Source: Clostridium massiliamazoniense
GTDB lineage: Bacteria > Bacillota > Clostridia > Clostridiales > Clostridiaceae
Assembly: GCF_001403635.1 (NCBI RefSeq)
Contig: NZ_LN879467.1
Coordinates: 62,001-126,000 of the forward strand
Length of the DNA: 64,000 bases
Direction: 5' to 3'
Below are positions 5,598 to 54,152 of the stretch, piece by piece (within the stretch, counting starts at the first letter, position 1; the number at the start of each line of letters is the position of its first letter). A model generated the notes under the pieces. The model was given only the letters and a program-made list of their open reading frames with translations, ran no database searches and was not told the DNA's origin. The translations under genes were made by a program, and so were the position numbers.

Positions 5598-5743
5598 AAA
5601 CTGAGACTTAATTCAGATAGAGTAGTAACTAAATCTGAATTTTAATGAAAGTTATTTATGGACATGTGCCTGTTTAACTTCAGATATAGAATGGAGTTAA
5701 ACAGATACTAGTCATAGAAGAGTTAAGCTAGTTAAGAAATTTT
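5598..5743 (+). repeat. dispersed structured repeat, copy A
   Basis: Begins AAACTGAGACTTAATTCAG; first hairpin arms ATTCAGATAGAGT / CTAAATCTGAAT, then GAAAGTTATTTA, an inner perfect stem CTGTTTAACT / AGTTAAACAG, and ACTAGTCATAG. Same family as copies at 6715, 9177, 24560, 29743, 41498, 51848, 52981 and 54043. With copy B in the same orientation it brackets the gene at 5830-6702. Confidence 0.75.
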
Positions 5744-5829
5744 AATACATCTCCGTTTTTAATGGAAAAAAGAATATTTTATTATTAAAGGTAAATAATA
5801 TAAATATATATTTTTGGGAGATGAATTAA

Positions 5830-6702
5830 ATGAAAAGAAGAATATTTCAAATATTATATCTAAAAGAGGATACTTTAAGTGATTTAGACTTACTTTATGG
5901 ATGTCATCATAGAGTTATGCAAGAATATATGAAAAGGTTTAAACTATTAGATAAATTATATATAAATGAATTTATAAATTTAGATTCAAAGGATTTGGAA
6001 GAAGAATTTATTTTAGAGCGGATACCAATACTAGAAAGATTAGTTCCTTTTAGCATACTTAAGATATTAACATCAAGAGGATCTATTAAATATTTGTATA
6101 ATGATGAAGACATAAATTTAATAAAATTATATTTAGAAGTTTGTATTGAAGGGTATAATGAGATTTATGATGATATAGAATTGCTTAAATTTTGTAAGAA
6201 TATAATAAAAATACTTCCTAATGTTTCAGATAGTAAATATGTAATAGAGGATTATGGAATTGCTATGATGTTTAAAGATTTCATATTAAGTTATTACAAA
6301 GATTATAGAGTTAATATAAATCCTATGATAAATGTAATTATTTTAGAAATAATAAGATTTTATATAGGGAAAATTCATGGAGTAATTATTGTAGATGAAC
6401 TACTAGAAGTATACAAGAAGATTATTGTATATTGTGAAATTCAAGTATATGGATATATAGTCGGTCAAATAAGAGCTGGTTTCACAATAGAATTAATAAA
6501 TGATTTAGTTAAGTATTATAATAATAGAGATATTTTAGCAAATAGACCTTACTTAAGATTTATATTCTTTTATATTAAAGAAGCAAAGGTTGGAGAGGGC
6601 ATAAGAAGGAATATAGGAAGTGATGAATTAATTAAAGTGGAAGAAAGATTACTAAATGCTTATGAAAATAGATTAAAACAATTAGTAAATAGTGTAAAGT
6701 AA
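5830..6702 (+). CDS. uncharacterised protein, 290 aa, bracketed by direct repeats
   Basis: Helical, soluble protein without a recognised domain; composition is rich in Ile, Tyr, Leu and Lys. The ribosome site TTGGGAGATG lies 8 bases before the ATG. The gene stands alone: dispersed repeat A ends 87 bases upstream and repeat B starts 12 bases after the stop, both in the same orientation as the gene. No sign of signal peptide or membrane span. The bracket by direct repeats suggests it could have been acquired or moved as a unit. Confidence 0.7.
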   Translation: MKRRIFQILYLKEDTLSDLDLLYGCHHRVMQEYMKRFKLLDKLYINEFINLDSKDLEEEFILERIPILERLVPFSILKILTSRGSIKYLYNDEDINLIKLYLEVCIEGYNEIYDDIELLKFCKNIIKILPNVSDSKYVIEDYGIAMMFKDFILSYYKDYRVNINPMINVIILEIIRFYIGKIHGVIIVDELLEVYKKIIVYCEIQVYGYIVGQIRAGFTIELINDLVKYYNNRDILANRPYLRFIFFYIKEAKVGEGIRRNIGSDELIKVEERLLNAYENRLKQLVNSVK

Positions 6703-6714
6703 TAATTTTTATAT

Positions 6715-6850
6715 AAACTTAGACTTAATTCAGGTGGAATTTTGACTCCATCTGAATACTTAGTCAAAGTTATTTATAAGCGAGAGGATGTTTATCTCCT
6801 ATTTATAGAAGATAGGAATATATTATAGCTTCTAGCTATTAGATAAATTT
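6715..6850 (+). repeat. dispersed structured repeat, copy B
   Basis: Begins AAACTTAGACTTAATTCAGG, hairpin ATTCAGGTGGAATT / GACTCCATCTGAAT, then CTTAGTCAAAGTTATTTATA, GAGGATGTTTATCTCC, and closes with CTAGCTATTAGATAAATTT. GTTATTTA near the 5' side can pair with TAGATAA at the 3' side. It starts 12 bases after the stop of the upstream gene. Confidence 0.8.
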
Positions 6851-6906
6851 AAAAACTTTAAGAATATAATCAAAAGTTATCAAGTGTGGATGCAATATAA
6901 AGAATA

Positions 6907-7881
6907 TTATTTATATATAGAATTTAATTTTGAATATATATCATTTGAAATTTTTGCTATGATTTCACAAGCAGCATTAGAGTTATCTTTTAAAATAACT
7001 TCTTTTTTTTCTCCATTAGTAATAGGAGTATCACCTATATTTTTAGTTAATATAACTAATATATAATTAATGTTATCGCCATAAATTATACCAGCATCAT
7101 GATAATAACCAAAGTTTGTTCCTATTTTATGAGCTACTTTATCATAAGGTAAATATTTATCTAATCTATCATGAAAAATAGTATTCTTTAAATGTTTTAT
7201 AATATCTTCGTAAATTGGGTTATTATCAGGATTATCATAAAGTCTTTTTAATAGTACACCAACTTGATTAGCTGTTAAAGTTCCATTTGCAGCTGCTTTC
7301 CCAGTTATTTTTTCATAATAAGGTCCTGCATATCCTCCAATTTTTCCGAGCATTCTAGCAGCAATGTTATCAGAATGAGTCATAGATAATTCAATAGCTT
7401 TTTCAACTGTAATAGGATTTATTTTTTTTTGATTTTGTAATATCCCAGTACCTTCTTCATAATCGGTATTAGGATTATAGCTTATAAGTTTATCTTTACT
7501 TAGTTTACCTTCATGGATTAAATCAGCAATGCTCATTACATTACCTAATTTACGAACACTAGCCCCTTTAAAATATTTTTCATCATTTAAGGAGTAGGTT
7601 GTACCAGTTTGTAGATTTTCATAATAAACAGCTATATTATTTCCATAATTACCTATGTTATCAGAAATAGAATTTTTTACAGCTTCAATTTCCATTTCTT
7701 TTAATTGTTCTGGAGTAAGTTTAATTTCCTTTTCCTCTTCTTTTACGTCAGTAGTAGTTGCTTCAGTTGGATTAGATGGCTTCTTTTTTTTACTAAATGT
7801 TTGTTGATTAGCAATTGTAGCTAAAATACCTAAAATCACTAAGGTAGATAAGGTTATTATAATTACATTTTTATTTTTCAT
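6907..7881 (-). CDS. membrane-anchored class A beta-lactamase-like serine hydrolase
   Basis: A signal anchor (about residues 5-24) is followed by a charged linker and a penicillin-recognising fold. The active-site S108-V-R-K111 and S170-D-N172 are present. The usual KTG triad is K252-I-G-T (AHKIGTNFG). No EPELN-type element carrying the deacylating glutamate of true class A beta-lactamases is visible; that region reads GKAAANGTLTANQ. It may therefore be a wall-related or non-hydrolytic relative rather than a resistance enzyme. The frame opens at a TTG at 7893, but GGGGG sits 5 bases before the ATG at 7881, which I take as the start (324 aa). Confidence 0.85.
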   Translation of the reverse strand: MKNKNVIIITLSTLVILGILATIANQQTFSKKKKPSNPTEATTTDVKEEEKEIKLTPEQLKEMEIEAVKNSISDNIGNYGNNIAVYYENLQTGTTYSLNDEKYFKGASVRKLGNVMSIADLIHEGKLSKDKLISYNPNTDYEEGTGILQNQKKINPITVEKAIELSMTHSDNIAARMLGKIGGYAGPYYEKITGKAAANGTLTANQVGVLLKRLYDNPDNNPIYEDIIKHLKNTIFHDRLDKYLPYDKVAHKIGTNFGYYHDAGIIYGDNINYILVILTKNIGDTPITNGEKKEVILKDNSNAACEIIAKISNDIYSKLNSIYK

Positions 7882-8196
7882 TTTGTCCCCCAAATAATTA
7901 ATATCAATGCATTTAATATTTTAAATTTAATTATATTTAGTAAATATAAACTTGGTTTTAATTGAAAGTAAATAAAAGGTAACTTGGTCTTTATCAAGCA
8001 ATAGCCTTATATTATTCAATATATATTTGTAAAATATAGTTAATTTTATACTATATGTTTATTTTTTAAAATCTATAAAAAGCACTAGAGAAGACTATTT
8101 TATTTGGTAATTTTTATTTTTTATTAAAAGTATTAGCTATGTAGTGTAATAGAAACTTATGAGCTACTAGTTAATTGATAAAATTGTAAGGAAAAT
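7882..8196. other. intergenic region, no clear gene
   Basis: 315 bases between divergent genes. Very AT-rich, presumably holding the promoter of the beta-lactamase-like gene near its left end. A stretch near 8135-8180 (ACTAGTTAATTGATAAAA) faintly resembles the 3' end of the dispersed repeat, too weakly to call. No ORF with a ribosome site was found. Confidence 0.4.
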
Positions 8197-8225
8197 TTGA
8201 AATTTGTAGAATTTAATAATATAAT
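8197..8225 (+). promoter_or_regulatory. sigma-A type promoter
   Basis: TTGAAA (8197-8202), 17-base spacer, perfect TATAAT (8220-8225); lies 37 bases upstream of the small gene at 8262. Confidence 0.75.
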
Positions 8226-8261
8226 AAGTAATAATATATTTATGAATTGGAGGATTTCTTT

Positions 8262-8453
8262 ATGGCTACTAAAAAAGAAATTATGGATTCTATTATAACT
8301 TGGGATGTTATAACAAATGATGAAAATGGTAATCCTATAGAGTGTGTAGAAGTAACATTTCCAGATAGAATTATAGATGTTAATATGGATACAAGAGAAG
8401 TTAATATTGGTTTAATAGTGAAAAAAATATTAGAAGATGATTTATATAAATAA
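8262..8453 (+). CDS. small protein of unknown function, 63 aa
   Basis: Soluble, acidic small protein (MATKKEIMDSIITWDVITND...). The frame opens at a TTG at 8247, but GGAGG at 8249-8253 is spaced 8 bases from the ATG at 8262, so the start is there. It has its own near-consensus promoter upstream and a strong terminator 7 bases downstream, so it is a monocistronic, probably well-expressed gene. No family recognised. Confidence 0.75.
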   Translation: MATKKEIMDSIITWDVITNDENGNPIECVEVTFPDRIIDVNMDTREVNIGLIVKKILEDDLYK

Positions 8454-8460
8454 TAGATAA

Positions 8461-8507
8461 AGGCGTAGAATCTAAACTTTTAGGATTAGATTTTACGTCT
8501 ATTTTTA
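8461..8507 (+). terminator. Rho-independent terminator
   Basis: Stem AGGCGTAGAATCTAA / TTAGATTTTACGTCT (8461-8475 with 8486-8500) with G-T pairs, followed by ATTTTT. Confidence 0.85.
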
Positions 8508-8542
8508 AATAGAATAACTAAAGAGGACAAGGAGGTCTTATT

Positions 8543-9079
8543 ATGATAAAAAGAAAGTGGCTTAATAGGGATGAAGTGAAAACAATTTTAGAAAAAGAAG
8601 TAATTATAAAATATAGAAATGATGAATTTTTCACTGGCTATGTTTCAATATTAGATTTAAAAAAAGTAGAAAAAACTACTATAGTTAATATATGTGGAAA
8701 AGATAGATGTGTATTGAAGGATGGACATAAATGGGTTCAATGGTTACCTAAAGGGGAAAAGTATTCTGTTATAGCCATATATGATGAAAATAAATATTTA
8801 ACAGAATGGTATGTTGATATATTAAAAAATCAGGGTACAGAGGAAAATGGAATGCCCTATTATGATGATTTATTTTTAGATGTTGTTATATTTAGGGATG
8901 GTTCTATGATTTTATTAGATGAGGATGAGCTTTTAGAAGCTTTGAATAACAAGGAAATTACGAGAGAAGAATATGATTTAGCCTATGAGGAAGGGAAAAA
9001 GATTTTAAATAGGTTTAGAGATAATATAGACAAAGAAGTAAAATATACGGAAGAAATGGTGAGTTATATTGAAAAGTAA
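8543..9079 (+). CDS. DUF402 (FomD/Ntdp-like) phosphatase family protein
   Basis: The 178 residues match the DUF402 family, whose characterised members (Ntdp of Staphylococcus, FomD) hydrolyse nucleoside di/triphosphates or CDP-type intermediates with divalent metal. The diagnostic block is visible: WYVDIL, then YYDDLFLDVVIFRDG (about 111-125), LLDEDELLEAL and ITREEYDLAYEEG. The acidic residues in this block are the family's metal ligands. GGAGG lies 7 bases before the ATG. It is a single gene with terminators on both sides; physiological substrate unknown. Confidence 0.85.
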   Translation: MIKRKWLNRDEVKTILEKEVIIKYRNDEFFTGYVSILDLKKVEKTTIVNICGKDRCVLKDGHKWVQWLPKGEKYSVIAIYDENKYLTEWYVDILKNQGTEENGMPYYDDLFLDVVIFRDGSMILLDEDELLEALNNKEITREEYDLAYEEGKKILNRFRDNIDKEVKYTEEMVSYIEK

Positions 9080-9103
9080 ATAATATAGTGAATTATAATT
9101 GAT

Positions 9104-9141
9104 GGGTTATATCTTGTTGTATTGATATAATCTATTTTTTT
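9104..9141 (+). terminator. probable terminator after DUF402 gene
   Basis: GGGTTATATC / GATATAATCT (9104-9113 with 9124-9133) followed by ATTTTTTT. Confidence 0.65.
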
Positions 9142-9176
9142 GTCATTAAAGATTTTAATAGGAGGGGGATAAAGGG

Positions 9177-9282
9177 AGATTTAATTCAGGGGGAGTTTTG
9201 ACTTTGATTAAACTTTAGTGAAATATCTCTAAGTTATAGAAGATTAAATTATTACAAATTGCTAAGTGATCGAATAAATTTA
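9177..9282 (+). repeat. dispersed structured repeat, copy C (degenerate)
   Basis: Shares TTAATTCAGGGGGAGTTTTGACT, AACTTTAGTGAAATATC, AAGTTATAGAAG, TATTACA and GCTAAGTGATCGAATAAATT with the family order seen in copies B and D, but lacks the GAGGATGTTTATCTCC arm and its first hairpin is partly decayed. Confidence 0.6.
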
Positions 9283-9354
9283 TCCTTAATTAAAGAGTGT
9301 TTTTTGTTAATATAAAGAAAAACATAAAAAAATTAAAAAATATATACTATTAAT

Positions 9355-9369
9355 TACCAATATTTGGTA
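9355..9369. promoter_or_regulatory. possible operator upstream of ParB-domain gene
   Basis: Perfect inverted repeat TACCAA-TAT-TTGGTA immediately upstream of a TATATAAT-rich stretch and 45 bases before the ATG at 9414. Could bind the ParB-domain protein itself or another repressor. Confidence 0.35.
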
Positions 9370-9413
9370 TTATATATAATATAAAGAATATAATATTAGT
9401 TAGGGGTTTTATT

Positions 9414-10847
9414 ATGGGGTATAAGTTTATTAATGTTGATATAGAAAAGCTAATAATAAATAAGGAAAATCCAAGATACCAATGGGTAGAATGTGAATAT
9501 GATGCTATAAAAAATATAATATTAAGGCAACAAGAAAAACTTTTAAATCTTATAGAAGATATAGCAGAAAATGGAGTTAACCCTTCAGAATTGATTATAG
9601 TTGTAGAAGAAGGAGAAAATTATATTGTTTTAGAAGGAAATAGACGTGTTACTGCCATTAAATTAATAAATGATTTAGATTTATATGCAGATATAGATAG
9701 TAAATTTGCAAATAAACTTTCTGTAATATTAAGTAAGAATTCAACTAGGGAGATAAAAGGAATTAATGCTATTTTATTTGATAGTCGATTAGAAGCAAAT
9801 AGATGGATTAAAATAAGACATACTGGAGACAATTCTGGAGTTGGAGTTCTTAAATGGAGTAAAGAACGAAAGGAAAATTTCATTAATGAAAATAGTAAAA
9901 TAAATAGAATATATGGAATATTAGATTATGTAAGGGAATCTAAGTATTATGATGAAAATTTGAAAATGCAGTTAGATGATGTAAAAGTAAGTCAGCTATC
10001 AAGATTATTAGATGATCCTCATGTTAGAGAGACTATAGGTTTAAGGCTTAAAAATAAAAAGTTTTATAGAATAGTTCCTGAAAAAGAATTATCTAAAGGA
10101 TTAAGTAAAATACTTTATGATATTTTAAATGGGGTATTTAAAGGAAGAAGTATTTCAACTAAAGAAAATAGATTAACCTATATAGAAGGTTTTTTAGGAA
10201 ATCAATTACCTTCTTATAATAATGGAGAGGGGGAAGTTAGTTCCTTAACTATTACTGATGCAAAGGAAGATAACTGTATAGAACGGGATACTGAGCAAAT
10301 GACATTAAAAGATTTTAATATTATAGATGGAATAGCAAAAGAGGAAAAAATGGAAAAGTTAAGAAGTCAAATAAAAAATAAAGATATAGTTTTAACTACA
10401 TCAAAAAGTAATAGAAATAAAAGAAGATATCTTATACCAAGTGATTTCAATATAAGAATAGTAGATAAGTCAATAGATTCCTTATATAAAGAGCTTAAAA
10501 CATTGGATATAAAGAGATATTCTAATTCAGTGGAAGTTTTATTTAGAATGTTTTTAGAAAAAATAGTACTGAATTATGTTGAAAAAAATAATTTAGACTT
10601 AAAAAGAGAAGAGGGAGAGTTAGATTTAATAGAAAATTTAAAAAGTATAATATTAGATTTAAAACATAAAGAAAAGTTAACTTTAGAGGATGAGGCTTTT
10701 TTAGAAGAATTATTAAAGAGTAAAAAAGGAATATTTAAATTTAATACTTTTAAAGAGTATATTTTAAATAAGGATCTTTTTATAGATATAGTTCAATTAA
10801 AAGAAAGTTGGGATTTAGTAGAGTGTGTTATTAAGGAACTACTTTAA
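9414..10847 (+). CDS. ParB/Srx-fold N-terminal domain protein, orphan
   Basis: Residues about 5-110 form a ParB-type N-terminal domain: INKENPR near 15-21, then an alternation ending in LEGNRRVTAIKLI (73-85), where GxRR is the conserved nucleotide-binding motif of ParB/Srx proteins. In this superfamily the fold can be a CTP-dependent clamp or a nuclease-like enzyme. The remaining 350 residues are helical and lack a recognisable HTH. No ParA neighbours it and the gene is alone between two terminators, so chromosome partition is unlikely; stand-alone members often sit in accessory DNA. ATG is preceded by a weak AGGGG site. Confidence 0.75.
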   Translation: MGYKFINVDIEKLIINKENPRYQWVECEYDAIKNIILRQQEKLLNLIEDIAENGVNPSELIIVVEEGENYIVLEGNRRVTAIKLINDLDLYADIDSKFANKLSVILSKNSTREIKGINAILFDSRLEANRWIKIRHTGDNSGVGVLKWSKERKENFINENSKINRIYGILDYVRESKYYDENLKMQLDDVKVSQLSRLLDDPHVRETIGLRLKNKKFYRIVPEKELSKGLSKILYDILNGVFKGRSISTKENRLTYIEGFLGNQLPSYNNGEGEVSSLTITDAKEDNCIERDTEQMTLKDFNIIDGIAKEEKMEKLRSQIKNKDIVLTTSKSNRNKRRYLIPSDFNIRIVDKSIDSLYKELKTLDIKRYSNSVEVLFRMFLEKIVLNYVEKNNLDLKREEGELDLIENLKSIILDLKHKEKLTLEDEAFLEELLKSKKGIFKFNTFKEYILNKDLFIDIVQLKESWDLVECVIKELL

Positions 10848-10876
10848 ATGATAACATTTAAATTTTATTTAAAAAC

Positions 10877-23213: not shown

Positions 23214-24414
23214 TTATTTCTCAGCAAAAATAACATTGTTTTCCTTTATCATATTTGCATAGCTATTTTTATATTTTTTCATAAGATTGTATTCTTTTTC
23301 AGTAATAAACTTGTCATTTCCAGCTTCATAATCGGCAATTGCTTTATTAGCATTTATGGTTCTAAACCCCTTACCTGTAGACATTGGATTAATATCTATA
23401 TAGGTTGGAATATAAGAAACTGTCTTTATAGCATCTGAGGAAAATGGATTTGCTTTGTCTATTCTTAAATCCACATTAAGTATTATTCCTGTATCAGAAA
23501 ATTCTTTATTTTGGTTTCCGGTAAAGTTACCAAGCGCATAAGCTACAACACCTTTTTTTTCTTTTCCATCTTTGGTTACAATCATTTCCTCAATAGGCTG
23601 GACTACATGGGGATGATTTCCTATTATCAAAGAAGAGTTTGTGTTTTCAAAAATCCATTTAGCAAGCTCTTTTTGTTCATTACTAGGCTCTTTTTGATAT
23701 TCATTACCCCAGTGTAAAAGTGTAACCATAAATTCAGCTCCACCTTCCTCTAATTTTTTACAATCTTTAAGTATTTGTTCCTTAGCTATTAAGTTTACAG
23801 CATATTCTTTTCCTTTTGGAATAATATTCCCATTAGTTCCATAGGTGTAACTTACAAATCCTACATTGGCACCTTTTATATTTTTTATATAGGGCTTATC
23901 TCTATCTTCTTGAGATTGAGAGGTTCCTATATAATCTAAGTCATAATCTTTTAAATAATCAATAGTCTTATTTAATCCATTGATTCCTCTATCTAGGGAG
24001 TGATTGTTATTTGTACTAACTAAATCAACTCCAAGAGTATTTTTCATGGCATATCCAAGTTGTTCAGGAGTATTAAACATAGGATATCCAGTATACTTGG
24101 AATTAGCTCCAGCAAATACTGTTTCTAAATTTGCAATGGTGAAATCAGCATTGTTTATATAGGGTGCTATATCTTCAAACATTGGGTGAAAATCAAAACC
24201 ATCTATAGTTTTCATAGAATTAAAAACTGTATTATGAACAAGCATATCACCAATAGCATTTATAGAAAGATCTACATATTCATTTTTCTTTTCTTCAACT
24301 TCTATGGTGGAGGTATTTTTTTTTACTTATGTCTTTTTCTAAGTTATTTGTAGAGCAACCTACAAGAGTAAAAGAATATAAAAGTAGTAAGAGTAATAAT
24401 TTTTTTTCTATCAT
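23214..24414 (-). pseudogene. CapA-family lipoprotein, frameshifted at an A9 run
   Basis: Two frames together encode a complete CapA/PgsA-type metallophosphatase-fold lipoprotein. The 5' frame from ATG 24414 (GGAG 9 bases upstream) gives a lipoprotein signal peptide, LLLLYSFTLVGC, with C20 of the lipobox, and continues to a run of nine A (plus-strand T 24316-24324). Losing one base there joins it to VEEKKNEYVDLSINAIGDML, the conserved start of the catalytic domain, and on to NLETVFAG, STNNNHSLDRG, LLHWGNEYQKEPS and IIGNHPHVVQP. The downstream ATG at 24245 is internal to the domain. Family members act on poly-gamma-glutamate or wall polymers. Either a real frameshift, slippage variation or an assembly error. 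Confidence 0.85.
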
Positions 24415-24559
24415 TAGCAAAGCTCCTTGATTATTTTTTATTATATTTACTTGAAATTAGATTTGAGATTTTTTCTTAAGGTAGTTAAAGTAGCTTTCAT
24501 AAGTTATATAAGATATTATTACATATAATGATTTTATTTACAATAATAGGTAAGTTTAC

Positions 24560-24684
24560 ATTTATCTGATAACTAATATCTGTAATACTTAGGTCTATTA
24601 TAAGCTGGAGATAAACAGATATTCTTCATTAGATAACAATCATTAAAATTCAGCCAAAGTTAAAAATTCATTTGAATTAAGTTT
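24560..24684 (-). repeat. dispersed structured repeat, copy D
   Basis: On the minus strand: AAACTTAATTCAAATGAA, hairpin partner CTTTGGCTGAAT, GTTATCTAATGAAG, an AATATCTGT / ACAGATATT stem enclosing GTTTATCTCCAGCTTATA, and TTAGTTATCAGATAAA. The flanking 24415-24887 otherwise shows only AT-rich intergenic sequence. Confidence 0.75.
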
Positions 24685-24887
24685 AGAGTTATGTATATTT
24701 ATAAATAGTGATAATAAGTAGTTGTTGAAAGTTAAATGCTTTTGATTCAATATTAAATTTAATTTTTATAATAGTTAATAAAAAATGAATATTATAAATA
24801 ATGCATAATAATTAATAAATTATGTATAAATATTAAGAAGGATATAGTATAATAAAGTTATAAATTTTATGAGGAGGGGTTTGTAAA

Positions 24888-27783: not shown

Positions 27784-29739
27784 ATGAATATAACAGTTGG
27801 AGTATTTGCCCATGTAGATGCTGGAAAAACTACTTTTTCAGAGCAATTACTTTATCATGGAGATGCAATAAGAAATCCAGGGAGAGTTGATCATAAGAAT
27901 TCTTATTTAGATAATCATTATATAGAGAAAGATAGAGGAATAACTGTATTTTCTGATATTGGGATTTTTAATTATAACAATAAAAAATATTATTTAATAG
28001 ATACACCAGGACATATAGATTTTTCGCCAGAAATGGAGAGAGCTATTTCTGTATTGGATTATGCAATTTTAATAATAAGTTCTGTAGAAGGAATTCAAGG
28101 ACATAGTGAAACAATTTGGGAAATATTAAGAAAAAATAAAATTCCAACATGTATTTTTGTAAATAAGATGGATAGAGAGGGAAGCGACTTTGAAAAGATA
28201 ATAGAGGAAATTAAATTAAAGTTAAGTGAAAATATAATATGCTTAAGCAATGAATTTAACTTAGAAAAATGGAATGATTCTAATATTGAAGAGTTAGCTC
28301 AATGTGATGAGGACTTGTTAGTTACCTATTTGGAGGAAGGATATTCTAAAGATTTATGGAATAAAAGTTTAATAAAATTATTTAAAAAAGAAAAGATATT
28401 TCCTATTTTTTCAGGAGCAGCTTTATTGGATAAGGGAATTAAAGAATTTTTAGATATATTCTCTGAAATAACAGAAAGTAATTATAATGAAAAAAGTAAT
28501 TTTACAGGGAAAGTATTTAAAATAAAATATGATGAAAAGGGGGAAAGATTAACATTCATAAAAGTATTAACAGGAGAGATAAAGCCAAAAGATATAATTA
28601 GCTATAGTCAGGGCGATAGCTTCATAGAAGAAAAAATAAACTCAATAAGACTTTATAATGGAAATAAATTTGATGTCCTAGAAAAATCTGTGGCAGGTGA
28701 TATTGTAGCTGTTTTAGGAATTAGTAGTTTAGAGGCTGGAGATGGAATTGGCATTGAAAGTAATAAGGAATATAAAATGGTTCCAACTTTAAAGTCAAAA
28801 GTTATTTTTAATGATAAAATAAATCCAAGAGAAATTTTAAAATATTTTAAAATTTTAGAATCAGAGGATAAGAGTTTAGGTGTAACTTGGAATGAGGAAG
28901 CAAAAGAAATAAACATTAGTATAATGGGAGCCGTTCAATTAGAAGTTCTTAAAGAGATATTAAAAGAGAGATTTAAGGTAGACATAATTTTTGGTACCCC
29001 AACTATTTTATATAAAGAAACTGCTTTAGGAGAAACTATGGGCTGTGGACATTTTGAGCCTTTAGGTCATTATGCAGAGGTAATAATGAAAATAAAAGAA
29101 GGGGAAAGAGGTAGAGGAATTAAATTTATAAATAAGTGTCATGCAGATCATTTGACTGTAGGACATCAAAACCTAATAAAAACACATATATATGAATGTG
29201 AACATAATGGTATTTTAACAGGGGCTCCAGTAACAGATTTAGAAATAACTTTATTAACAGGTAGAGCGCATAATAAGCATACAAGTGGAGGGGATTTTAG
29301 GGAAGCAACAAAAAGAGCTTTAAGACAAGGGTTGGAAAATATGGACAATAAACTTTTAGAACCTTTTTATAAGTTTAAAATTGATGTTAATATGAATTTG
29401 ATGGGAAGAGTGATTTCAGATATCCAGAAAATGAAAGGTGAATTTTTAGAACCAAAAAACAATGGAGAGAGAGTTACCATTGAGGGAAGAGGACCTGTAG
29501 CCACATTTATGAATTATGCATTAGAATTTCAATCATTTACAAAAGGAAAAGGAGCTTTAAGCTTAGTTTTTGATGGATATGATTTTTGTCATAATGAAGA
29601 GGAGATTATAGATAATATTGCTTATAATAAAGATGCTGATATTAATTATACATCAACATCAATATTTTGTTCTAAAGGACAAGCTTATTTAGTAGAGGGA
29701 AAAAATGCAATGAAGGAAATGCATTGTTTAAAAAAATAA
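27784..29739 (+). CDS. TetM-like translation-factor GTPase (ribosomal protection family)
   Basis: EF-G-like GTPase of 651 residues, the size of TetM/TetO/TetB(P). G1 AHVDAGKT (9-16), switch I RGIT (51-54), DTPGH (73-77), NKMD (127-130), SGAA (about 211-214); domain IV carries CGHFEPLGHYAEVIMKIKEG and HTSGGDFREATKRALRQGL. Acts on the ribosome. The sequence departs from known Tet proteins (for example FSEQLLYHGDAIRNPGRVDH at the start), so tetracycline resistance is possible but not shown; NCBI-style name would be translation factor GTPase family protein. GAGGAG lies 7 bases before ATG. Copy I of the dispersed repeat begins 3 bases after the stop. Confidence 0.9.
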   Translation: MNITVGVFAHVDAGKTTFSEQLLYHGDAIRNPGRVDHKNSYLDNHYIEKDRGITVFSDIGIFNYNNKKYYLIDTPGHIDFSPEMERAISVLDYAILIISSVEGIQGHSETIWEILRKNKIPTCIFVNKMDREGSDFEKIIEEIKLKLSENIICLSNEFNLEKWNDSNIEELAQCDEDLLVTYLEEGYSKDLWNKSLIKLFKKEKIFPIFSGAALLDKGIKEFLDIFSEITESNYNEKSNFTGKVFKIKYDEKGERLTFIKVLTGEIKPKDIISYSQGDSFIEEKINSIRLYNGNKFDVLEKSVAGDIVAVLGISSLEAGDGIGIESNKEYKMVPTLKSKVIFNDKINPREILKYFKILESEDKSLGVTWNEEAKEINISIMGAVQLEVLKEILKERFKVDIIFGTPTILYKETALGETMGCGHFEPLGHYAEVIMKIKEGERGRGIKFINKCHADHLTVGHQNLIKTHIYECEHNGILTGAPVTDLEITLLTGRAHNKHTSGGDFREATKRALRQGLENMDNKLLEPFYKFKIDVNMNLMGRVISDIQKMKGEFLEPKNNGERVTIEGRGPVATFMNYALEFQSFTKGKGALSLVFDGYDFCHNEEEIIDNIAYNKDADINYTSTSIFCSKGQAYLVEGKNAMKEMHCLKK

Positions 29740-29742
29740 GTT

Positions 29743-29862
29743 ATTTAATTGAGTAAAGTTAAAGTTTTATCTAGATTTTAGAAATAATTATATAAGAATA
29801 GGTGTCTAGTTCTTTTCAGAGTATAGAAAATTAGAGGAGCACAAATTCTAGTTAGCATAAAA
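29743..29862 (+). repeat. dispersed structured repeat, copy I (degenerate)
   Basis: TTTAATTGAG, ATCTAGATTTTAG, then GGTGTCTAGTT, AGTATAGAAAATTAGAGGAG, CACAAATTCTAGTTAGCAT aligns in order with copies A and G over its whole length, though many positions differ. Immediately follows the TetM-like gene. Confidence 0.5.
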
Positions 29863-41472: not shown

Positions 41473-41497
41473 ATTAAAACATCCCCTTTTGAAATGA

Positions 41498-41629
41498 TTA
41501 ATCTTAATTCAGGTGGAGTTTTAACTCCATCTGAATGCTTAGTCGTAGTTATCTAAAAGCGCGAGGATGTTTATTTCCTACTTATGTTAGGGGGATTACA
41601 GCCTCAAGCTATGAGATAGAATAAGTTTT
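41498..41629 (+). repeat. dispersed structured repeat, copy E
   Basis: Cleanest first hairpin, ATTCAGGTGGAGTT-TT-AACTCCATCTGAAT, then GCTTAGTCGTAGTTATCTAA, GCGAGGATGTTTATTTCC and GCTATGAGATAGAATAAG. It precedes the serine hydrolase gene by 88 bases. Confidence 0.82.
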
Positions 41630-42728: not shown

Positions 42729-42906
42729 ATTAAAAATTTTATAAAAATTAATTTATTTATTTTATTAAAAGTATATTTCAAAACTCTATGATTATAAAAT
42801 TCTAAAATATTAAAATTAATGAATATAGTTCTATTGTTATAAAATTAAAATTGAATTAAAATAATAGTATATAGAAAAATAACTCTTATAAATGGAAGTG
42901 GTACAA

Positions 42907-43623
42907 GTGGATTCAGAAGAAAGAAAAGAATTAGATATAGGGGATATAACATTAAATTATTATGAACGTGGAAGTGGAAAAACTTTAATTTTTATTCACG
43001 GAAATGGACTTAGTAGCAAGGTTTTTAAAAAAATGTATATGTATTTTTCAAGATTTTATAGAGTTATAGCTATTGATACAAGAGGGCATGGCCTTAGTAA
43101 GTCAGGTAATATACCATATACAGTAAATTTACTTTCTGAAGATTTCATAAAATTTTGCAATATAAAAAATATAAAAAAAACATCTATCATAGGATATAGT
43201 GATGGTGGTAATATTGCATTAATGATAGCTAAAAAAGAGCCGACAATGATTGATAAACTAGTAGTTATTTCAGGCAATTATAAAGCTGAAGGAGTAAAAT
43301 TATGGTTTAAAACTTATGTATTAACATCAAAAATACCATTAATATTACTAAAAAGATTTTCTGAAAAAGCAAGGATTAAATTGTGGAGACTTAATTTAAT
43401 GATAAGAGATATAGGAATAAAAGATGAAGATTTAGCTTCTATAAATACTCCAACTTTAGTTATGTGTGCTGAATTTGATGTTATTTCTAAGAAACATACT
43501 GAAACTATACATAATTATATAAAAGGATCTATAATAAAACTTGTAGAACATTCAACGCATTTCAATATAGTATCTAAGGAAAATTCTCTTAAAATAATAG
43601 ATAAATTCTTAAAAGTGAATTAA
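42907..43623 (+). CDS. alpha/beta hydrolase, tandem paralogue 1
   Basis: Nucleophile S98 in GYSDGG, oxyanion HGNG (31-34), acid in CAEFDVIS and His in EHSTHFNIV: a complete alpha/beta hydrolase triad. The nearest ATG is 42892, but starting at GTG 42907 makes the N-terminus align residue for residue with the paralogue at 43824, and GGAAG sits 8 bases before it. About half of residues are shared with the paralogue (for example YYE, FIHGNG, AIDTRG/AIDSRG). Substrate unknown. Confidence 0.82.
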   Translation: MDSEERKELDIGDITLNYYERGSGKTLIFIHGNGLSSKVFKKMYMYFSRFYRVIAIDTRGHGLSKSGNIPYTVNLLSEDFIKFCNIKNIKKTSIIGYSDGGNIALMIAKKEPTMIDKLVVISGNYKAEGVKLWFKTYVLTSKIPLILLKRFSEKARIKLWRLNLMIRDIGIKDEDLASINTPTLVMCAEFDVISKKHTETIHNYIKGSIIKLVEHSTHFNIVSKENSLKIIDKFLKVN

Positions 43624-43747
43624 TGTAAATATGATGTTTTAAGTACAATATAATATGATATAATATAAATATAACAAATCTACATTAGATAAATAATCTA
43701 TATGGAGATTTGTTTTGTTTTGTAAAATATTATTAGTTAATAAATAT

Positions 43748-43790
43748 AAATAACTGTATTGAAACTGTATAAGCTTTAATACAGTTATTT
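43748..43790 (+). terminator. terminator-like hairpin
   Basis: AAATAACTGTATT / AATACAGTTATTT, following another imperfect hairpin (AACAAATCT / AGATTTGTT, 43674-43717, then TTTGTTTTG) that may end the first hydrolase transcript. Confidence 0.6.
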
Positions 43791-43823
43791 AATGATTGAA
43801 TTTAATAGAAAAGAAGTGAATAT

Positions 43824-44573
43824 ATGAAATTAGAGGGAAAAAAACAATTAGAAGTTGACGATATTATATTAAATTATTATGAAAAAGGAGAAGGAGATAC
43901 TATAATATTTATTCATGGAAATGGAATGAGTAGTAAGATTTTTTCTAAGATGTACTTTCATTTTTCTAAAAAGTATAATGTAATTGCCATTGATAGTAGG
44001 GGACAAGGGTTAAGTTCAGCAGGAAAAAAGCGTTATAGTTTATCATTATTTGCAGAGGATATAATTAAATTTTGTAGTATAAAAAAAATTAAAAAAGCAA
44101 TTGTTATAGGTTATAGTGATGGTGCTAATATAGCTCTTTTAATAGCAAAAAAAGCTCCAAAGCTAATAAAAAAAATGGTTGTGATTTCTGGGAATTTTGC
44201 TGTAAATGGAATACATACCTGGTTTATACTATTGATTAAAATATACAAAAAAATATTATTAAGTCTAAAAAAATATTATAGAAAATCAGAAAAGAAAATA
44301 TGGCTTTTAGATTTAATGTTAAAAGATATTGGTATTGAAGAAAATGACTTAAGAAATATTAATATTCCAACATTAATTTTATGTGCTGATCTTGATGTTG
44401 TTTATGATTTTCATACAATTACAATTCACAAAAATATAAAAGGATCTTTTTTAAGAAAAATACGAAATTGTACTCATGCAAACATAGTAAATAAAAAAAA
44501 TTCTTTAAAAGAAATTGATAAATTTCTTTTAAAGGATACAATAAAGGAAAATATGAGTGCTATTTCAGCCTAA
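43824..44573 (+). CDS. alpha/beta hydrolase, tandem paralogue 2
   Basis: Same fold and motifs as its upstream neighbour: HGNGMSSK, AIDSRGQGLS, S98 in GYSDGA, CADLDVVYDFHT with the acid, and final His in NCTHANI. A C-terminal extension of about ten residues is extra. AAAGAAGTG upstream of ATG. The two copies are separated by two hairpins, so each may have its own transcript. A recent tandem duplication followed by divergence is likely. Confidence 0.85.
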   Translation: MKLEGKKQLEVDDIILNYYEKGEGDTIIFIHGNGMSSKIFSKMYFHFSKKYNVIAIDSRGQGLSSAGKKRYSLSLFAEDIIKFCSIKKIKKAIVIGYSDGANIALLIAKKAPKLIKKMVVISGNFAVNGIHTWFILLIKIYKKILLSLKKYYRKSEKKIWLLDLMLKDIGIEENDLRNINIPTLILCADLDVVYDFHTITIHKNIKGSFLRKIRNCTHANIVNKKNSLKEIDKFLLKDTIKENMSAISA

Positions 44574-48812: not shown

Positions 48813-48923
48813 TTAATTTAAGACTAATTTAACAAAAAATAAGTATATTATAGAAAGTATTGCTAATATAGACAAGACACTAACAGATGCACTTAAAATT
48901 TGTTTTTTATTATCTTTTTTCAT
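48813..48923 (-). CDS. 36-aa single-pass membrane peptide
   Basis: ATG with AAAAGGAA 5 bases upstream; MKKDNKKQILSASVSVLSIL then AILSIIYLFFVKLVLN: basic start and one hydrophobic helix. Ends against the bidirectional terminator. No family recognised. Confidence 0.55.
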   Translation of the reverse strand: MKKDNKKQILSASVSVLSILAILSIIYLFFVKLVLN

Positions 48924-49595: not shown

Positions 49596-50325
49596 CAAAG
49601 GCGGTGTTGGGAAAAGTACAGTTGCTGTTCAACTTTCCCATGGACTATCAAAGTTAGGGTTTAAAGTTATTTTATTAGATTTAGATGGTCAAAATGATTC
49701 AAGTCTATTTTTAGGAATAAGTGAAGATAAGTATAAAAAAACTTTCTTTGATTTAATGGATAAAAGATCTGAAGTATCTGTAAGAGATTGTATAATTGAA
49801 GCAAGAGAAAACTTAGATTTACTTCCTAATTCACATATAGAAGAAATAAATGCAGAATTTTATAGAGAATCTAGAATTGATTTAATTTTAAATGAAAAAC
49901 TTAAAGATTTAGAAGAGATGGATTATGATTTTATTATAATAGACTGCGGACCTCAAAGAACAAAGGTAAATGATGCTGTACTTTGTTATGTTGATAATAT
50001 AATAATGCCAGTTCAAGTTGAAGCTGCTGCTGTAAGAGCTTGTGGTAGCATTTATGAGTATTTAGCTGATTTAAGATTATCACCAGATAAAATATCATTA
50101 ATAATCCCAAATATGTTTGATCAAAGAACAAAAGATGCAAAGGAAAATTTAAATTTTCTTTATGAATTCTTTAGTGATATGGACGATATAGTTACTAATC
50201 CTATTAATAGAAGAATAAAAATTACAGAGGCTGGAAAAATGGGTAAAACTGTTTTTGAATATGATGAAGAAGCTGCCTCACAATTTTTTGATGTTCTTGA
50301 AAGGCTGGTGAAGAAAATTGGCTAA
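49570..50325 (+). CDS. parA: ParA-family partition ATPase
   Basis: Deviant Walker A KGGVGKST (10-17), switch LLDLDGQND (A' box, about 34-42) and Walker B IIIDCGPQ (about 119-126), 251 residues: a stand-alone class Ib-type ParA/MinD-fold ATPase without an N-terminal HTH. AAAGGGGGA precedes the ATG. Operon with an upstream 93-residue protein and a downstream RHH protein, as in plasmid or integrative-element partition loci. Typical chromosomal soj-spo0J neighbours are absent. Confidence 0.9.
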   Translation: MKKIAILNNKGGVGKSTVAVQLSHGLSKLGFKVILLDLDGQNDSSLFLGISEDKYKKTFFDLMDKRSEVSVRDCIIEARENLDLLPNSHIEEINAEFYRESRIDLILNEKLKDLEEMDYDFIIIDCGPQRTKVNDAVLCYVDNIIMPVQVEAAAVRACGSIYEYLADLRLSPDKISLIIPNMFDQRTKDAKENLNFLYEFFSDMDDIVTNPINRRIKITEAGKMGKTVFEYDEEAASQFFDVLERLVKKIG

Positions 50326-50839
50326 AAAGAAGGAAAATTCCTTAAATCATAATTTTGAAGCGTTAAAAGCTCAGATGCAAGCTAAACGTAAGTTAGCAGA
50401 AAATAGATTTGAAACTAGCAAAAGTGAAGATACAGATGAAAAAAAAGAAGAGTTTAAAACAAATATTACAGAATTACCTTCTATAGTAGAAGAGAATAGA
50501 GATAATTTTAATGAGAAGTTTGAAGAAGAATATGTAACACTTAATATAGTTGATGAGGATAATAATATTCAGCATGATAGAAATGAAAAGGAATCAAATA
50601 AAGAACAGCAAGTTGAATATGTAGCTAAAAAAACAGGTGTTGTTTCTGATATAAACATTAATAAAATAGTTATAAAAAAGGTAGAAAAACCTGAAATGCC
50701 TAAGAGAATAACTTACTATTTAAGACCAGAGACTATAAAGAAAATAGATAAATTTTCTAAAGCCTCTGGGATGGGAAAATCAGAATTTGTACAAAAAATA
50801 TTAGATGAAGTACTTAATAATTTAGAAATTGAAAAGTAA
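50318..50839 (+). CDS. ribbon-helix-helix DNA-binding partner of ParA
   Basis: Overlaps parA by 8 bases and starts at TTG. A disordered, charged N-terminal 120 residues precede a C-terminal RHH domain: RITYYLRPETIKKIDKFSKA, then GMGKSEFVQKILDEVL. Small RHH proteins next to ParA (ParG, omega) bind centromere-like repeats and stimulate the ATPase through the flexible N-terminus; that is the likely role. Followed by a terminator. Confidence 0.82.
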   Translation: MAKKKENSLNHNFEALKAQMQAKRKLAENRFETSKSEDTDEKKEEFKTNITELPSIVEENRDNFNEKFEEEYVTLNIVDEDNNIQHDRNEKESNKEQQVEYVAKKTGVVSDININKIVIKKVEKPEMPKRITYYLRPETIKKIDKFSKASGMGKSEFVQKILDEVLNNLEIEK

Positions 50840-50854
50840 TTATTTAATTACCTG

Positions 50855-50888
50855 TAAGGGGTTGTTCGCACCAATCCCTTATTTTTTT
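50855..50888 (+). terminator. terminator of ParA operon
   Basis: TAAGGGGTTG-TTCGCA-CCAATCCCTTA followed by seven T; overlaps the end of the convergent gene. Confidence 0.93.
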
Positions 50889-51220
50889 GTTACTATTAAT
50901 TGGATTTCTTCTATAATATTATTAGGTACTTTTATAATATATTTTCCTGAAGTCCGTAATTTATACTTGTTTATAATATGAAATTTTAATTTATAATCAA
51001 TTAATTCTCCTTTAGCTATATTAATAAAGAAATTATCATCTTTTTCATGATTTAAAAGGTCTATGGTTCCGTAGATATAAGATATATTATTATCTCTATG
51101 AACATTCATTTCTAAGTCATAATCATTTATTATTTCTTCATAATCAATATATAAATTACTCATATTAAAGTTATTATATATTTCTTTAAATGAAATATTA
51201 GTATTTATAAAATTATTCAA
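50879..51220 (-). CDS. uncharacterised protein, 113 aa
   Basis: Soluble protein with beta-rich C-terminal half (LRTSGKYIIKVPNNIIEEIQ). Starts at TTG, 7 bases after a strong TAGGAGG site. Convergent to the ParA operon, whose terminator it overlaps. No family recognised. Confidence 0.65.
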   Translation of the reverse strand: MNNFINTNISFKEIYNNFNMSNLYIDYEEIINDYDLEMNVHRDNNISYIYGTIDLLNHEKDDNFFINIAKGELIDYKLKFHIINKYKLRTSGKYIIKVPNNIIEEIQLIVTKK

Positions 51221-51294
51221 GTTTTCCTCCTAAAATTAATTGCTACATTAAAATATATTCATAACTTATAAAAAAAATAATTCTTTACAATAAT

Positions 51295-51328
51295 TAGGGA
51301 TATATCTATAACTTTGATATATCCCCTT
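51295..51328. repeat. GATGTATC-family hairpin without T-run
   Basis: AGGGATATATC-TATAACTTT-GATATATCCCCTT; same loop and stem pattern as the terminators at 2807, 18711 and 38664, but only weakly U-rich flanks, so it may be a degenerate terminator. Confidence 0.55.
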
Positions 51329-51416
51329 GAGTAATATATGCCCCAAATAATACTTAAGAAATAGTTATTTCTATGAATTTAATATAGTCTGTGGCTTATT
51401 TAATATCTTTTAAAAT

Positions 51417-51740
51417 TTAAGAAATGTTAGATTTTTTTAAATAATAATATATTAATATAGATGCTATTATAGAAATTAAAAATAGTGTTAATAATAAAAA
51501 TACTGAAAATATTATCCCTTTATCCCCATAATGGTTTATATAAATCGGACACGACATGGATACTATTCCTATAAATAAGTAGTATAAAGCAAAAATATCC
51601 GCCATTAATTTTTTGTTTTTGATTTTGCATATATTACTTTCATCTAAAGTACATATTAGGTTTAATTGTTTCTTTATTCCTATTTGATATGAAACAATTA
51701 TAAACACTAAGGCTATTGCTCCAAATATTATATAATGCAT
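51417..51740 (-). CDS. DUF3784-like three-helix membrane protein
   Basis: 107 residues: helices at about 3-20, 48-65 and 75-98. The pattern of an N-terminal helix, a short soluble loop with NLICTLDESN and KKLMADIFALYYLFIGIV fits DUF3784-type small membrane proteins of Firmicutes. Function unknown. AAGGATGTG upstream of ATG. Single gene downstream (on the minus strand) of the recombinase and copy F. Confidence 0.65.
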   Translation of the reverse strand: MHYIIFGAIALVFIIVSYQIGIKKQLNLICTLDESNICKIKNKKLMADIFALYYLFIGIVSMSCPIYINHYGDKGIIFSVFLLLTLFLISIIASILIYYYLKKSNIS

Positions 51741-51847
51741 AACAACACATCCTTTAATAACCTTATACTATATAATATTATAAAACTCTAATTATGTACT
51801 ATAAAATTAAATAATTATCTTCTTTAATTTTATAAATTTTTAAAACT

Positions 51848-51951
51848 CTTAAATTATCTAGAAACGTGAGACTGATAATAGCCTCACGCTTCTAGAGAAC
51901 GCCCATTAAGCATTCAGATGAAATCAAAATTCTCACCTGAATTAAGTTCTA
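51848..51951 (-). repeat. dispersed structured repeat, copy F
   Basis: Minus strand: AGAACTTAATTCAGGTGAG, hairpin partner TTTCATCTGAAT, GCTTAATGGGCGTTCTCTAGA, a strong arm GCGTGAGGC / GTCTCACGT, and TTTCTAGATAA. Begins 15 bases after the recombinase stop codon, on the same strand. The variable arm differs fully from other copies. Confidence 0.75.
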
Positions 51952-51966
51952 CGTTTGTGTAGTCAT

Positions 51967-52959
51967 TTAAAAATTTAAAGGATTTAACTCCACAGCTTTT
52001 TCTAATTCTTTATTATTAACATGAGTATATACTTGAGTTGTAGAAATTGATTTATGACCTAAGGTAGTTTGAATAGTTCTTATATCTACTCCAGCCTTAA
52101 GCATTAATGTGGCAGAAGTGTGTCTAAGCTTATGAGTAGTGTAGTGTTTATTGAATTTTGAATTTTCTAAAGCGTTACTTACTAATTGTTCTACAGTCCT
52201 TTTACTTATTCTCTGTTTCCTTTCACTTAAGAATAAAGCATCCTCATGTCCTGGTTTAACTATTAAATCATCTCTAAATCTAATTTCTTTATACTTTAAT
52301 AAAGCTTCCATTACAGCTTTATTAAAGTAAACAATTCTTTCTTTATTTCCTTTCCCTATTACAGTTATAGTATTATTATTTAAATTAGATATATTAAGAG
52401 AACATAATTCAGAGAGCCTCATTCCTGTATTAAGAAAAATAGTTAATATACACCAATCTCTGATCCAATTCCTACTATTAACAGAATTAAGTAAAGTTCT
52501 ACATTCTTCTTCTGTTAAATAAACAGGTAGTCTTTCTTCTAATTTTGGATTTTCTAAATCTTGTCCTATATCTACAGCTATTGTTTTAGCTATTTTATAT
52601 GAATATGTCAAAAAACCTTTTATACTTGCTATTTTTCTAGATCTTGTTTTAGCATTGCAGCCTCTTTCCTCCTGTAAAAAATTCAAGAATTCAAAAATAT
52701 CCTCAAGTTCTATTTGTGATATAAATTCTTTTTTTAAATCTGAAATTTTAACAGTTAATATATTAACTTCTTCATCTTCATTATCATATTCATAATCATC
52801 ATAATAAACTCTTAAAAATTTTAATAATAAAGATAAATCAGATTCGTAAGCTCTAACTGTGCTTTCAGAGGCCCCTTTAATTGCTTTTAAATAAGAAAGA
52901 TAACTATTTAAAAATTTAGGTATATTATTATTCTCTTTAACTTTCTTTTTCTTTATCAT
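51967..52959 (-). CDS. tyrosine recombinase/integrase (XerC/D-like)
   Basis: 330 residues. N-terminal SAM-like core-binding domain (about 14-125) and catalytic domain with R181 (NTGMRLSELCSL), K204 (GKGNKER), H276-x-x-R279 (THKLRHTSATLML), H302 (LGHKSISTTQ) and nucleophile Y311 (VYTHVNN): all six catalytic positions are intact. Such enzymes resolve chromosome dimers or move integrative elements and cassettes. It is enclosed by direct copies G (upstream) and F (downstream) of the dispersed repeat, and lies near a ParA operon; a dedicated function in a mobile segment is more likely than being the housekeeping XerC. Confidence 0.93.
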   Translation of the reverse strand: MIKKKKVKENNNIPKFLNSYLSYLKAIKGASESTVRAYESDLSLLLKFLRVYYDDYEYDNEDEEVNILTVKISDLKKEFISQIELEDIFEFLNFLQEERGCNAKTRSRKIASIKGFLTYSYKIAKTIAVDIGQDLENPKLEERLPVYLTEEECRTLLNSVNSRNWIRDWCILTIFLNTGMRLSELCSLNISNLNNNTITVIGKGNKERIVYFNKAVMEALLKYKEIRFRDDLIVKPGHEDALFLSERKQRISKRTVEQLVSNALENSKFNKHYTTHKLRHTSATLMLKAGVDIRTIQTTLGHKSISTTQVYTHVNNKELEKAVELNPLNF

Positions 52960-52980
52960 AATATCTCCAATTTATTTATA

Positions 52981-53104
52981 TTTTATCTGATGACTAGTGT
53001 TGTAATATTCCAATCTATAAACTAGAGACAAATAGACACAGGCATCTAGATAACTTTCACTAAATTTCAGATAGAGTTAAAAATCTATCTGAATTAAGTC
53101 TTAT
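52981..53104 (-). repeat. dispersed structured repeat, copy G
   Basis: Minus strand: AAGACTTAATTCAGATAGA, hairpin partner TCTATCTGAAAT, AGTGAAAGTTATCTAGATGC, TTGTCTCTAGTTTATAG, ATTACAACACTAGTCATCAG and ATAAA. The GATAGA / TCTATC arms replace the GGTGGA / TCCATC arms of copy E, a compensatory change. Confidence 0.8.
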
Positions 53105-53251
53105 TTTATATATTCTTATTATAACAAAATATAAAATAATTACCTTAAATTAAAGAAAATTTTATCTAACTTTAAATTTTTTTCATAATTAGAAAATACA
53201 AGAAAAACAGAAGTGTTTCTATAGAATACTTCTGTTTAATAAATTAATTAT

Positions 53252-53686
53252 TTATTTATTGTGTTTATGACCGTTACCAGCACCTGTTTGCTTTTTGATT
53301 TCATGAAGATTTAAACTTCTATCATTTTCATGTACAACAGAGTGGATATGAGCACTTTTATTTAAATTTTTATTATCTTGTTCTTTTACGTCTTTAGTTG
53401 TTGGTACTTTGCTAGAATGTTTATAACCATTACCAGCACCTGTTTGTTTTTTAATTTCATGAAGATTTAAATTTCTATCATTTTCATGTACTACAGAGTG
53501 AATATGATCGCTTTTATTTAAATTTTTACTGTCTTGTACTTTAGTTTTAGTTTTTGCTACATTCTCAGAATGTTTGTGGCCGTTACCAGCGCCTGTTTGT
53601 TTTTTAATTTCATGAAGATTTAAACTTCTTTCATTTTCGTGTACTACAGATTTTATTTTTTCGCTTTTGTGTGTTTTTTTATTCAT
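53252..53686 (-). CDS. His-rich protein with three tandem 51-residue repeats
   Basis: 144 residues made almost wholly of three repeats (cores at about 13-39, 64-90 and 116-142). Each core reads SVVHENxRxLNLHEIKKQ followed by TGAGNGHKH; linkers contain NLNKSxHIH. Histidines recur at fixed positions, as in metal-binding or coat-type proteins, and the repeated motif ends would also suit a multi-copy peptide precursor, though no processing enzyme is nearby. No signal peptide. DNA repeats differ by mostly silent changes. AAAGGAG 9 bases before ATG. Lies between repeat copies H and G on the same strand. Confidence 0.75.
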   Translation of the reverse strand: MNKKTHKSEKIKSVVHENERSLNLHEIKKQTGAGNGHKHSENVAKTKTKVQDSKNLNKSDHIHSVVHENDRNLNLHEIKKQTGAGNGYKHSSKVPTTKDVKEQDNKNLNKSAHIHSVVHENDRSLNLHEIKKQTGAGNGHKHNK

Positions 53687-54042
53687 ATTAATTCAACTCC
53701 TTTATTTGATAATATAAAATAACATAAATATATACAATCTATAACTGTTGATACAATTTAGAGTAATATAATAAAAAATTGCTAATAATAAAATATATAT
53801 TGTCTTTATATAATTAACCGATATTTTATTTACAATATTACAAATTAATTTACATATTTTAAAGATATTTATCCTATAAAAGGGTATTATTTATAATATT
53901 TATATATTTTTAGGGATTTTATATTATTTAGAATAAAAAAAACATTTAATTTCTGATTTTTTTTAGAATAAAGTCCCAAATTTATATAAAAGTATAATTT
54001 TATCAAAAATAATTAATTTTTATATAATATAATAAATATTTT
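53687..54042. other. AT-rich intergenic region, no gene seen
   Basis: 356 bases, almost only A and T, upstream of the His-rich repeat gene on the minus strand; likely holds its promoter. No ORF or strong hairpin noted. Confidence 0.4.
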
Positions 54043-54152
54043 TTTATCTGATGACTATTCTCTATAATACTTAAGTCCTATATACATTGAAGATAAACAA
54101 CTACACTTCCTTAGATGCTTTCCACTAATTAAAATTCCTCTTAATTTTGTAT
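54043..54152 (-). repeat. dispersed structured repeat, copy H (5' hairpin decayed)
   Basis: Minus strand: GTTGTTTATCTTCAATGTAT, GGACTTAAGTATTATAGAGA, ATAGTCATCAGATAAA match copies D and G closely at the 3' side; the first hairpin is reduced to ATTAAGAGGAATTTTAATTAG. Confidence 0.7.

Follow-up and report, generated by a model that had tools for sequence, protein, structure and literature searches.

A dispersed intergenic repeat with a conserved fold in Clostridium massiliamazoniense, possibly moved as a folded single strand

A stretch of 64,000 nucleotides from Clostridium massiliamazoniense (assembly GCF_001403635.1, contig NZ_LN879467.1, positions 62,001 to 126,000 of the forward strand; 25.4% G+C), here called the window, raises the question of what has spread a short intergenic repeat and what has kept it folded. 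Nine copies of this repeat had been proposed from the letters alone (the original prediction). The repeat family is real and unnamed within the collections searched, and its fold is kept by selection. The best explanation, which in our judgment has about an even chance of being right, is a non-autonomous mobile repeat that moved as a folded single strand and is now old and partly decayed. Since a single 64-kb window was analyzed, mobility and function are both things that we infer.

Copies were searched for with a covariance model built from six of them (R1, with copies C, D and H outside the training set) and with a nucleotide profile built from seven. The element consists of a left hairpin and a long right arm and is about 105–135 bases long. 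The copies and the hairpins of two of them are given below, each copy with the position under which it was first reported in brackets; leave-one-out E values refer to the profile, and z compares folding energy with shuffles.

Copy A (5598), 5596..5721, plus strand: left ATAAA present, right end degenerate; R1 111.6 bits; leave-one-out E 1.7e-14; z −3.8.
Copy B (6715), 6713..6847, plus strand: both ends with ATAAA, starting about 10 nt past a gene that ends at 6702; R1 132.3 bits; leave-one-out E 6.5e-27; z −5.3.
First hairpin (P1) of copy B, 6728..6757, plus strand: 6728–6738 pairs with 6747–6757, from the predicted fold and the consensus.
Right arm of copy B, 6770..6846, plus strand: at its foot (P2), 6770–6775 (TTATTT) pairs with 6841–6846 (AGATAA, overlapping the right ATAAA).
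Copy C (9177), 9169..9278, plus strand: ATAAA at both ends, internal deletion, ordinary folding energy; profile 22.8 bits, E 3e-6; R1 E 0.047.
Copy D (29743), 29743..29861, plus strand: probably a remnant, with the right ATAAA, 3 nt downstream of a gene that ends at 29739; profile 12.8 bits, E 0.004; R1 E 0.063.
Copy E (41498), 41492..41620, plus strand: R1 125.6 bits; leave-one-out E 4.8e-22; z −5.0.
Copy F (24560), 24561..24692, minus strand: right ATAAA, left ATAAC; R1 114.3 bits; leave-one-out E 1.3e-15.
Copy G (52981), 52982..53109, minus strand: ATAAA at both ends, ending 22 nt before the ATG of a Xer-like gene; R1 121.0 bits; leave-one-out E 7.1e-22; z −3.4.
First hairpin (P1) of copy G, 53065..53094, minus strand: 53094–53084 pairs with 53075–53065.
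Right arm of copy G, 52983..53053, minus strand: at its foot (P2), 53053–53048 (TTATCT) pairs with 52988–52983 (AGATAA).
Copy H (51848), 51853..51957, minus strand: a near-perfect 17-bp hairpin replaces the right arm; directly after the Xer-like gene; R1 49.0 bits, E 1.7e-6; leave-one-out E 3.1e-10; z −8.1.
Copy I (54043), 54043..54158, minus strand: first hairpin partly deleted, right ATAAA, ordinary folding energy; R1 76.9 bits; leave-one-out E 1.6e-8; z +1.0.

The covariance model, a check proposed together with the original prediction, scored its six training copies at 132 to 77 bits across the window and found copy H, absent from its training, at 49.0 bits (E=1.7e-6). It was marginal for copies C and D, three antisense matches to other copies being equally good. 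The nucleotide profile detected C and D at 22.8 and 12.8 bits, and 12 shuffled windows gave 5.9 bits at most. When each copy was left out in turn, with C and D never trained on, all nine were found again (E 6.5e-27 to 0.004), and the best site elsewhere, excluding opposite-strand matches that overlap known copies, had E 1.5. All nine predicted copies thus exist. Seven are strong and 9177 is clear; 29743 is called probable because it is the weakest copy and because a chance locus, selected by the first-hairpin pattern, reaches 12.6 bits with the profile, about equal to it. Pairwise identity between copies is 50–78%.

The view that the copies form an intergenic family, dispersed and sharing motifs in a fixed order, was also supported. 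According to the predicted gene map, 80.5% of the window is coding, and none of these coding bases falls inside the nine copies (copy D counted from 29740). All nine are intergenic, as against 11% of the window's 125-bp stretches that are wholly non-coding. Five copies lie on the plus strand and four on the minus strand, with a density of about one copy per 7 kb. Six of the nine are held by two clusters of three, at 5596–9278 (3.7 kb) and 51853–54158 (2.3 kb).

The evidence for a conserved fold comes from six aligned copies, for which RNAalifold gave 31 pairs: P1 (11), P2 (6; TTATCT with AGATAA), P3/P4 (10) and P5 (4). In this alignment 88.4% of 173 cells were paired, compared with 81.5% in column shuffles (none of 500 as high) and at most 43.5% with slid partners. 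Both sides had changed in 11 of the 31 pairs, compared with 6.1 in column shuffles (1 of 500 as high), and six of these doubly changed pairs are in P3/P4. The P2 helix was paired in 91.7% of its cells, confirming the proposed pairing of GTTATCTA with the 3' AGATAA. The covariation claimed for the first hairpin is real, and that of the right arm is stronger.

The alignment and its structure derive from the same six sequences. To account for the relatedness of the copies, these figures were compared with a simulation of neutral decay, in which a fully paired ancestor diverged along the copies' own tree and the fixed structure was counted. In 300 simulations the mean was 62.6% paired cells at full divergence and 75.6% at half divergence, and 88.4% was reached in none of them at either level. 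With the fixed structure, 11 doubly changed pairs were reached in 10 of 300 runs and the observed 16 doubly changed cells in 1 of 300. When simulated alignments were refolded (n=200), an RNAalifold energy as good as the observed −9.5 arose in none at full divergence, none at 0.7 and 10 at half, and the observed number of paired cells in 2 of 200 at half divergence. Because pairing and folding energy exceed those of the neutral-decay simulations, the structure was constrained during the divergence of the copies, or of the active elements that produced them.

Single copies are more uneven. Folding energy was clearly better than in shuffles for copies A, B, E, G and H (z −3.4 to −8.1) but not for C, D, F and I, and a second comparison gave a similar result. 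Copy F retains its right arm. The right arm had been described as differing completely between copies, which did not hold: GTTTATCTCC, TTATA and ATTACA recur in the distal right arm of most copies, and these unpaired motifs are conserved, while the lower helices vary with compensation. Copy H is without this part and has the 17-bp hairpin instead.

Whether the selected fold is that of RNA or of single-stranded DNA was also considered. In most copies folding is better on the sense than on the antisense strand; same-composition shuffles, however, show nearly the same gap, except for H; sense-strand folding was therefore rejected as proof of RNA, composition explaining most of the gap. G-U cells numbered 17 and A-C cells 6, in a structure that was chosen with G-U allowed. 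A terminator reading was rejected, since no intrinsic terminator (a G+C-rich hairpin with a T run) was found in the four scanned regions, which hold seven of the nine copies (C and D lie outside them). A tRNA or tmRNA was likewise rejected, none being found.

The ends of the element lie further out than originally drawn, and extend to ATAAA on both sides. On the left, ATAAA stands 10 bases ahead of the first motif, ACTTAATTCAG, in copies A, B, C and G, four of the eight copies with an alignable left side. Among 5000 sets of eight intergenic sites drawn at random, none had ATAAA four or more times at one offset, and two had any 5-mer that often. On the right, ATAAA is present in six of the nine copies, as AGATAA followed by A in B, F, G and I, and C and D also finish in ATAAA; conservation ends, by eye, past this motif. 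ATAAA flanks both sides in B, C and G. Seven copies were examined for terminal inverted repeats, and none were present (score 29.5 against 29.4 for the mean of shuffles, 1517 of 3000 shuffles being as high); a classical miniature inverted-repeat transposable element (MITE) was rejected for this reason. The left ATAAA was also considered as a −10 box and rejected: the preceding −35 position matches 2–4 of 6 bases in seven copies, with a random mean of 2.6.

No name for the family was found in the collections searched. Rfam, raised at the outset as a possible source of an explanation, offers none: Rfam 15 gave no match at the gathering cut-off in the whole window, and at permissive thresholds copies E, G, H and I gave three weak matches (E 0.73–3.6) in one search and none in another. 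No published description of the repeat was found in the openly accessible literature, among the matches listed. In a collection that represents each of 84,980 species by one genome, a first-hairpin pattern, which fits two of the nine copies, hit two stretches, both in unrelated metagenome-assembled genomes, one of Daviesbacteria and one of Lokiarchaeota. The Lokiarchaeota stretch is the chance locus mentioned above; it scored 22.7 bits with R1 (E 0.022 and 0.035), nearly all from the selecting hairpin, and its 12.6 bits with the profile are as for copy D. We judge both stretches to be chance. A species with the same consensus and a similar copy load should have shown up in this search, which could overlook a diverged form or a low copy number. 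Two further arm patterns hit four stretches and one stretch and were rejected, with no R1 support at the matched places, and four first-hairpin or arm patterns gave no stretch in viral contigs. Two protein look-ups returned no relative. With distant blastn, copy E and its flanks had no match in phages and plasmids. Copy B matched four plasmid records (E up to 10) in pieces of 14–26% of the query, and for copy G in phages (E up to 10) the best 20 of 24 records covered at most 25%; these pieces are short chance matches. Searches of plasmids with tblastn gave no Clostridium record among the matches listed.

A repeat that moved as a folded single strand would bring these observations together. The ATAAA boundaries point to mobility and, together with the truncated remnants C, D and I, to mobility in the past. 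Both hairpins would have been held by a trans-acting transposase, most likely an IS200/IS605-type (Y1) enzyme, which would have placed the element 3' of ATAAA. The pairing of TTATCT, at the foot of the right arm, with the right end AGATAA(A) would resemble that between a guide sequence and its cleavage site. Once transcribed, a copy would fold within its transcript and may influence the stability of the mRNA or its expression, either as a side effect or through later co-option.

Several observations weigh against this explanation. Copies D, E, F and H do not retain the left ATAAA, nor A, E and H the right one, and ATAAA on both sides is also compatible with a target duplication of 5 bp, or with bcr repeats and their link to TTTAT. 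Even the most similar two copies share no more than 78% identity, which argues against recent movement. Compared with a plain end hairpin, the right arm has a much greater length and a more conserved interior. No transposase was found among the 40 window proteins scanned with Pfam. In addition, all five copies in tandem-gene settings (A, C, D, G and H) are oriented with the genes, as a functional RNA would also be; with a probability of 1 in 32 by chance, this orientation is a hint only. Of the remaining copies, three (E, F and I) have divergent genes on either side, and B is flanked by convergent genes.

The sense orientation of these five copies is one reason to consider a functional RNA, either a leader element or a small RNA, that multiplied and whose copies were each kept because the folded RNA acts on the neighboring transcript or, via its conserved internal motifs, in trans. 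We regard this as possible but doubtful. Pairing retained through 22–50% divergence and the conserved unpaired motifs of the distal arm speak for it, as does copy G, which stops 22 nt before an ATG; there is also a precedent in bcr10 and bcr18, reported as structured and transcribed in 5' untranslated regions (PMC3446304). Yet C, D and I, and F by energy, fold no better than shuffles, H is without the conserved distal motif, and nine copies per 64 kb is dense for a regulator. In addition, B lies between convergent genes, no −35 box stands at promoter distance before the left ATAAA in seven copies, no intrinsic terminator occurs in the scanned regions (seven of nine copies), and the window protein family scans found no function common to the adjoining genes. 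Four copies had been placed 3–16 bases behind a same-strand stop codon, which is mostly unsupported: a same-strand gene is close upstream of 6715 (10 or 20 nt, depending on the start used), 29743 (3 nt) and 51848 (9 or 19 nt), and no convincing gene in the predicted map precedes 5598, 24560 and 54043.

ATAAA at both ends of B, C and G would also suit a bcr1-like repeat moved as double-stranded DNA, by a route resembling site-specific recombination or MITE movement through TTTAT/ATAAA, without IS200/IS605-type chemistry; TTTAT motifs have been tied to bcr movement (PMC6542083). This route is unlikely, as the seven copies examined are without terminal inverted repeats and the compensatory single-strand pairing would need another reason. 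A further possibility, quite improbable as it stands, is that a single-strand transposon end has become, or still is, a structured RNA: the foot of the arm would pair with the ATAAA target, the covarying right arm with its inner motifs would bind a ligand or protein, and the mobile hairpin pair would spread a regulatory RNA module within one genome. An attC-like family of recombination sites served by the Xer-like tyrosine recombinase (51967–52959) is scarcely credible: the distance from G to its gene is 22 nt and that from the gene to H about 9 nt, both copies being on its strand, and the protein matches tyrosine recombinases (TIGR02224 at 233 bits, under the 335-bit cut-off; PF00589), but there is no cassette array, the seven other copies lie among unrelated genes on both strands, and the attC core boxes were not seen by eye, no search for them having been made.

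Some neighboring genes deserve a description of their own. The Xer-like gene, 51967–52959 (minus strand), lies exactly between G and H, and its product is under the NCBIfam cut-offs for both XerC and XerD; it matches PDB chain 9i5v_14 with E=2e-28, a chain labelled ribosome-associated translation inhibitor RaiA, which looks odd. At 53252–53686 (minus strand), a predicted protein of 144 residues is built from a unit of about 45 residues (SVVHENxRxLNLHEIKKQTGAGNG), repeated three times almost without change, with all Pfam matches sub-threshold. The start of a CapA-like gene (PF09587), at 24245–24416 (minus strand), apparently differs in frame from the remainder of the gene, a long A run separating the two, and copy F lies about 145 nt before its likely start. 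Two adjacent predicted proteins with alike N-termini, at 42892–44573 (plus strand), look like a tandem duplication of alpha/beta hydrolases (function by eye).

If the preferred explanation of a repeat moved as a folded single strand is true, the copies form an unnamed family that combines dispersal with a conserved fold, of the lineage-restricted kind that the usual RNA and repeat collections miss. Its diverged copies would form a natural set for asking whether transposition or host RNA work keeps the structure of small repeats, a question still open for the BOX and bcr repeats.

How far, then, does the family resemble known systems, as the excerpts available of the cited papers describe them? 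IS200/IS605 elements are described as lacking inverted repeats and as carrying a fixed pentanucleotide on the left and a hairpin at either end, with pairing between a foot sequence and the end (PMC7290912). Like their ends-only derivatives (PATE), the repeat is without inverted repeats, has a left pentanucleotide and a hairpin near each end, and the foot of its right arm pairs with the right end (TTATCT/AGATAA); at the left end, four of five bases do so, by eye only. It differs from them in that no TnpA was found among the 40 window proteins, the right end bears the same pentamer as the left, and the right arm, of about 75 nt, has several internal loops and conserved inner motifs. BOX, RUP and SPRITE of Streptococcus pneumoniae are also short repeats scattered among other sequences, which would fold when transcribed and are regarded as old mobile elements that are likely to affect co-transcribed genes (PMC3049150); their sequences are different, and BOX is modular with variable numbers of boxB (PMC3049150). 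Among clostridia, Clop-1 of C. perfringens (93 nt) and Clot-1 of C. tetani (74 nt) are likewise intergenic stem-loop families, both shorter than the repeat here in a comparison by description, not sequence (PMC2267715). The bcr1–bcr18 repeats of the Bacillus cereus group are intergenic, lineage-restricted and 100–400 bp long, some of them MITE-like and some structured and transcribed. The repeat here belongs to another host group and lacks terminal inverted repeats, and it is set beside bcr by descriptions, not sequences. The movement of bcr repeats is tied to repeated TTTAT motifs, bcr1 being restricted to the B. cereus group (PMC6542083), and bcr10 and bcr18 are described as structured, predicted functional RNAs transcribed in 5' untranslated regions (PMC3446304). 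The TTTAT motif corresponds to ATAAA on the other strand here. In a related phylum, TTTAT-linked mobile repeats coexist with structured, transcribed ones (PMC6542083, PMC3446304).

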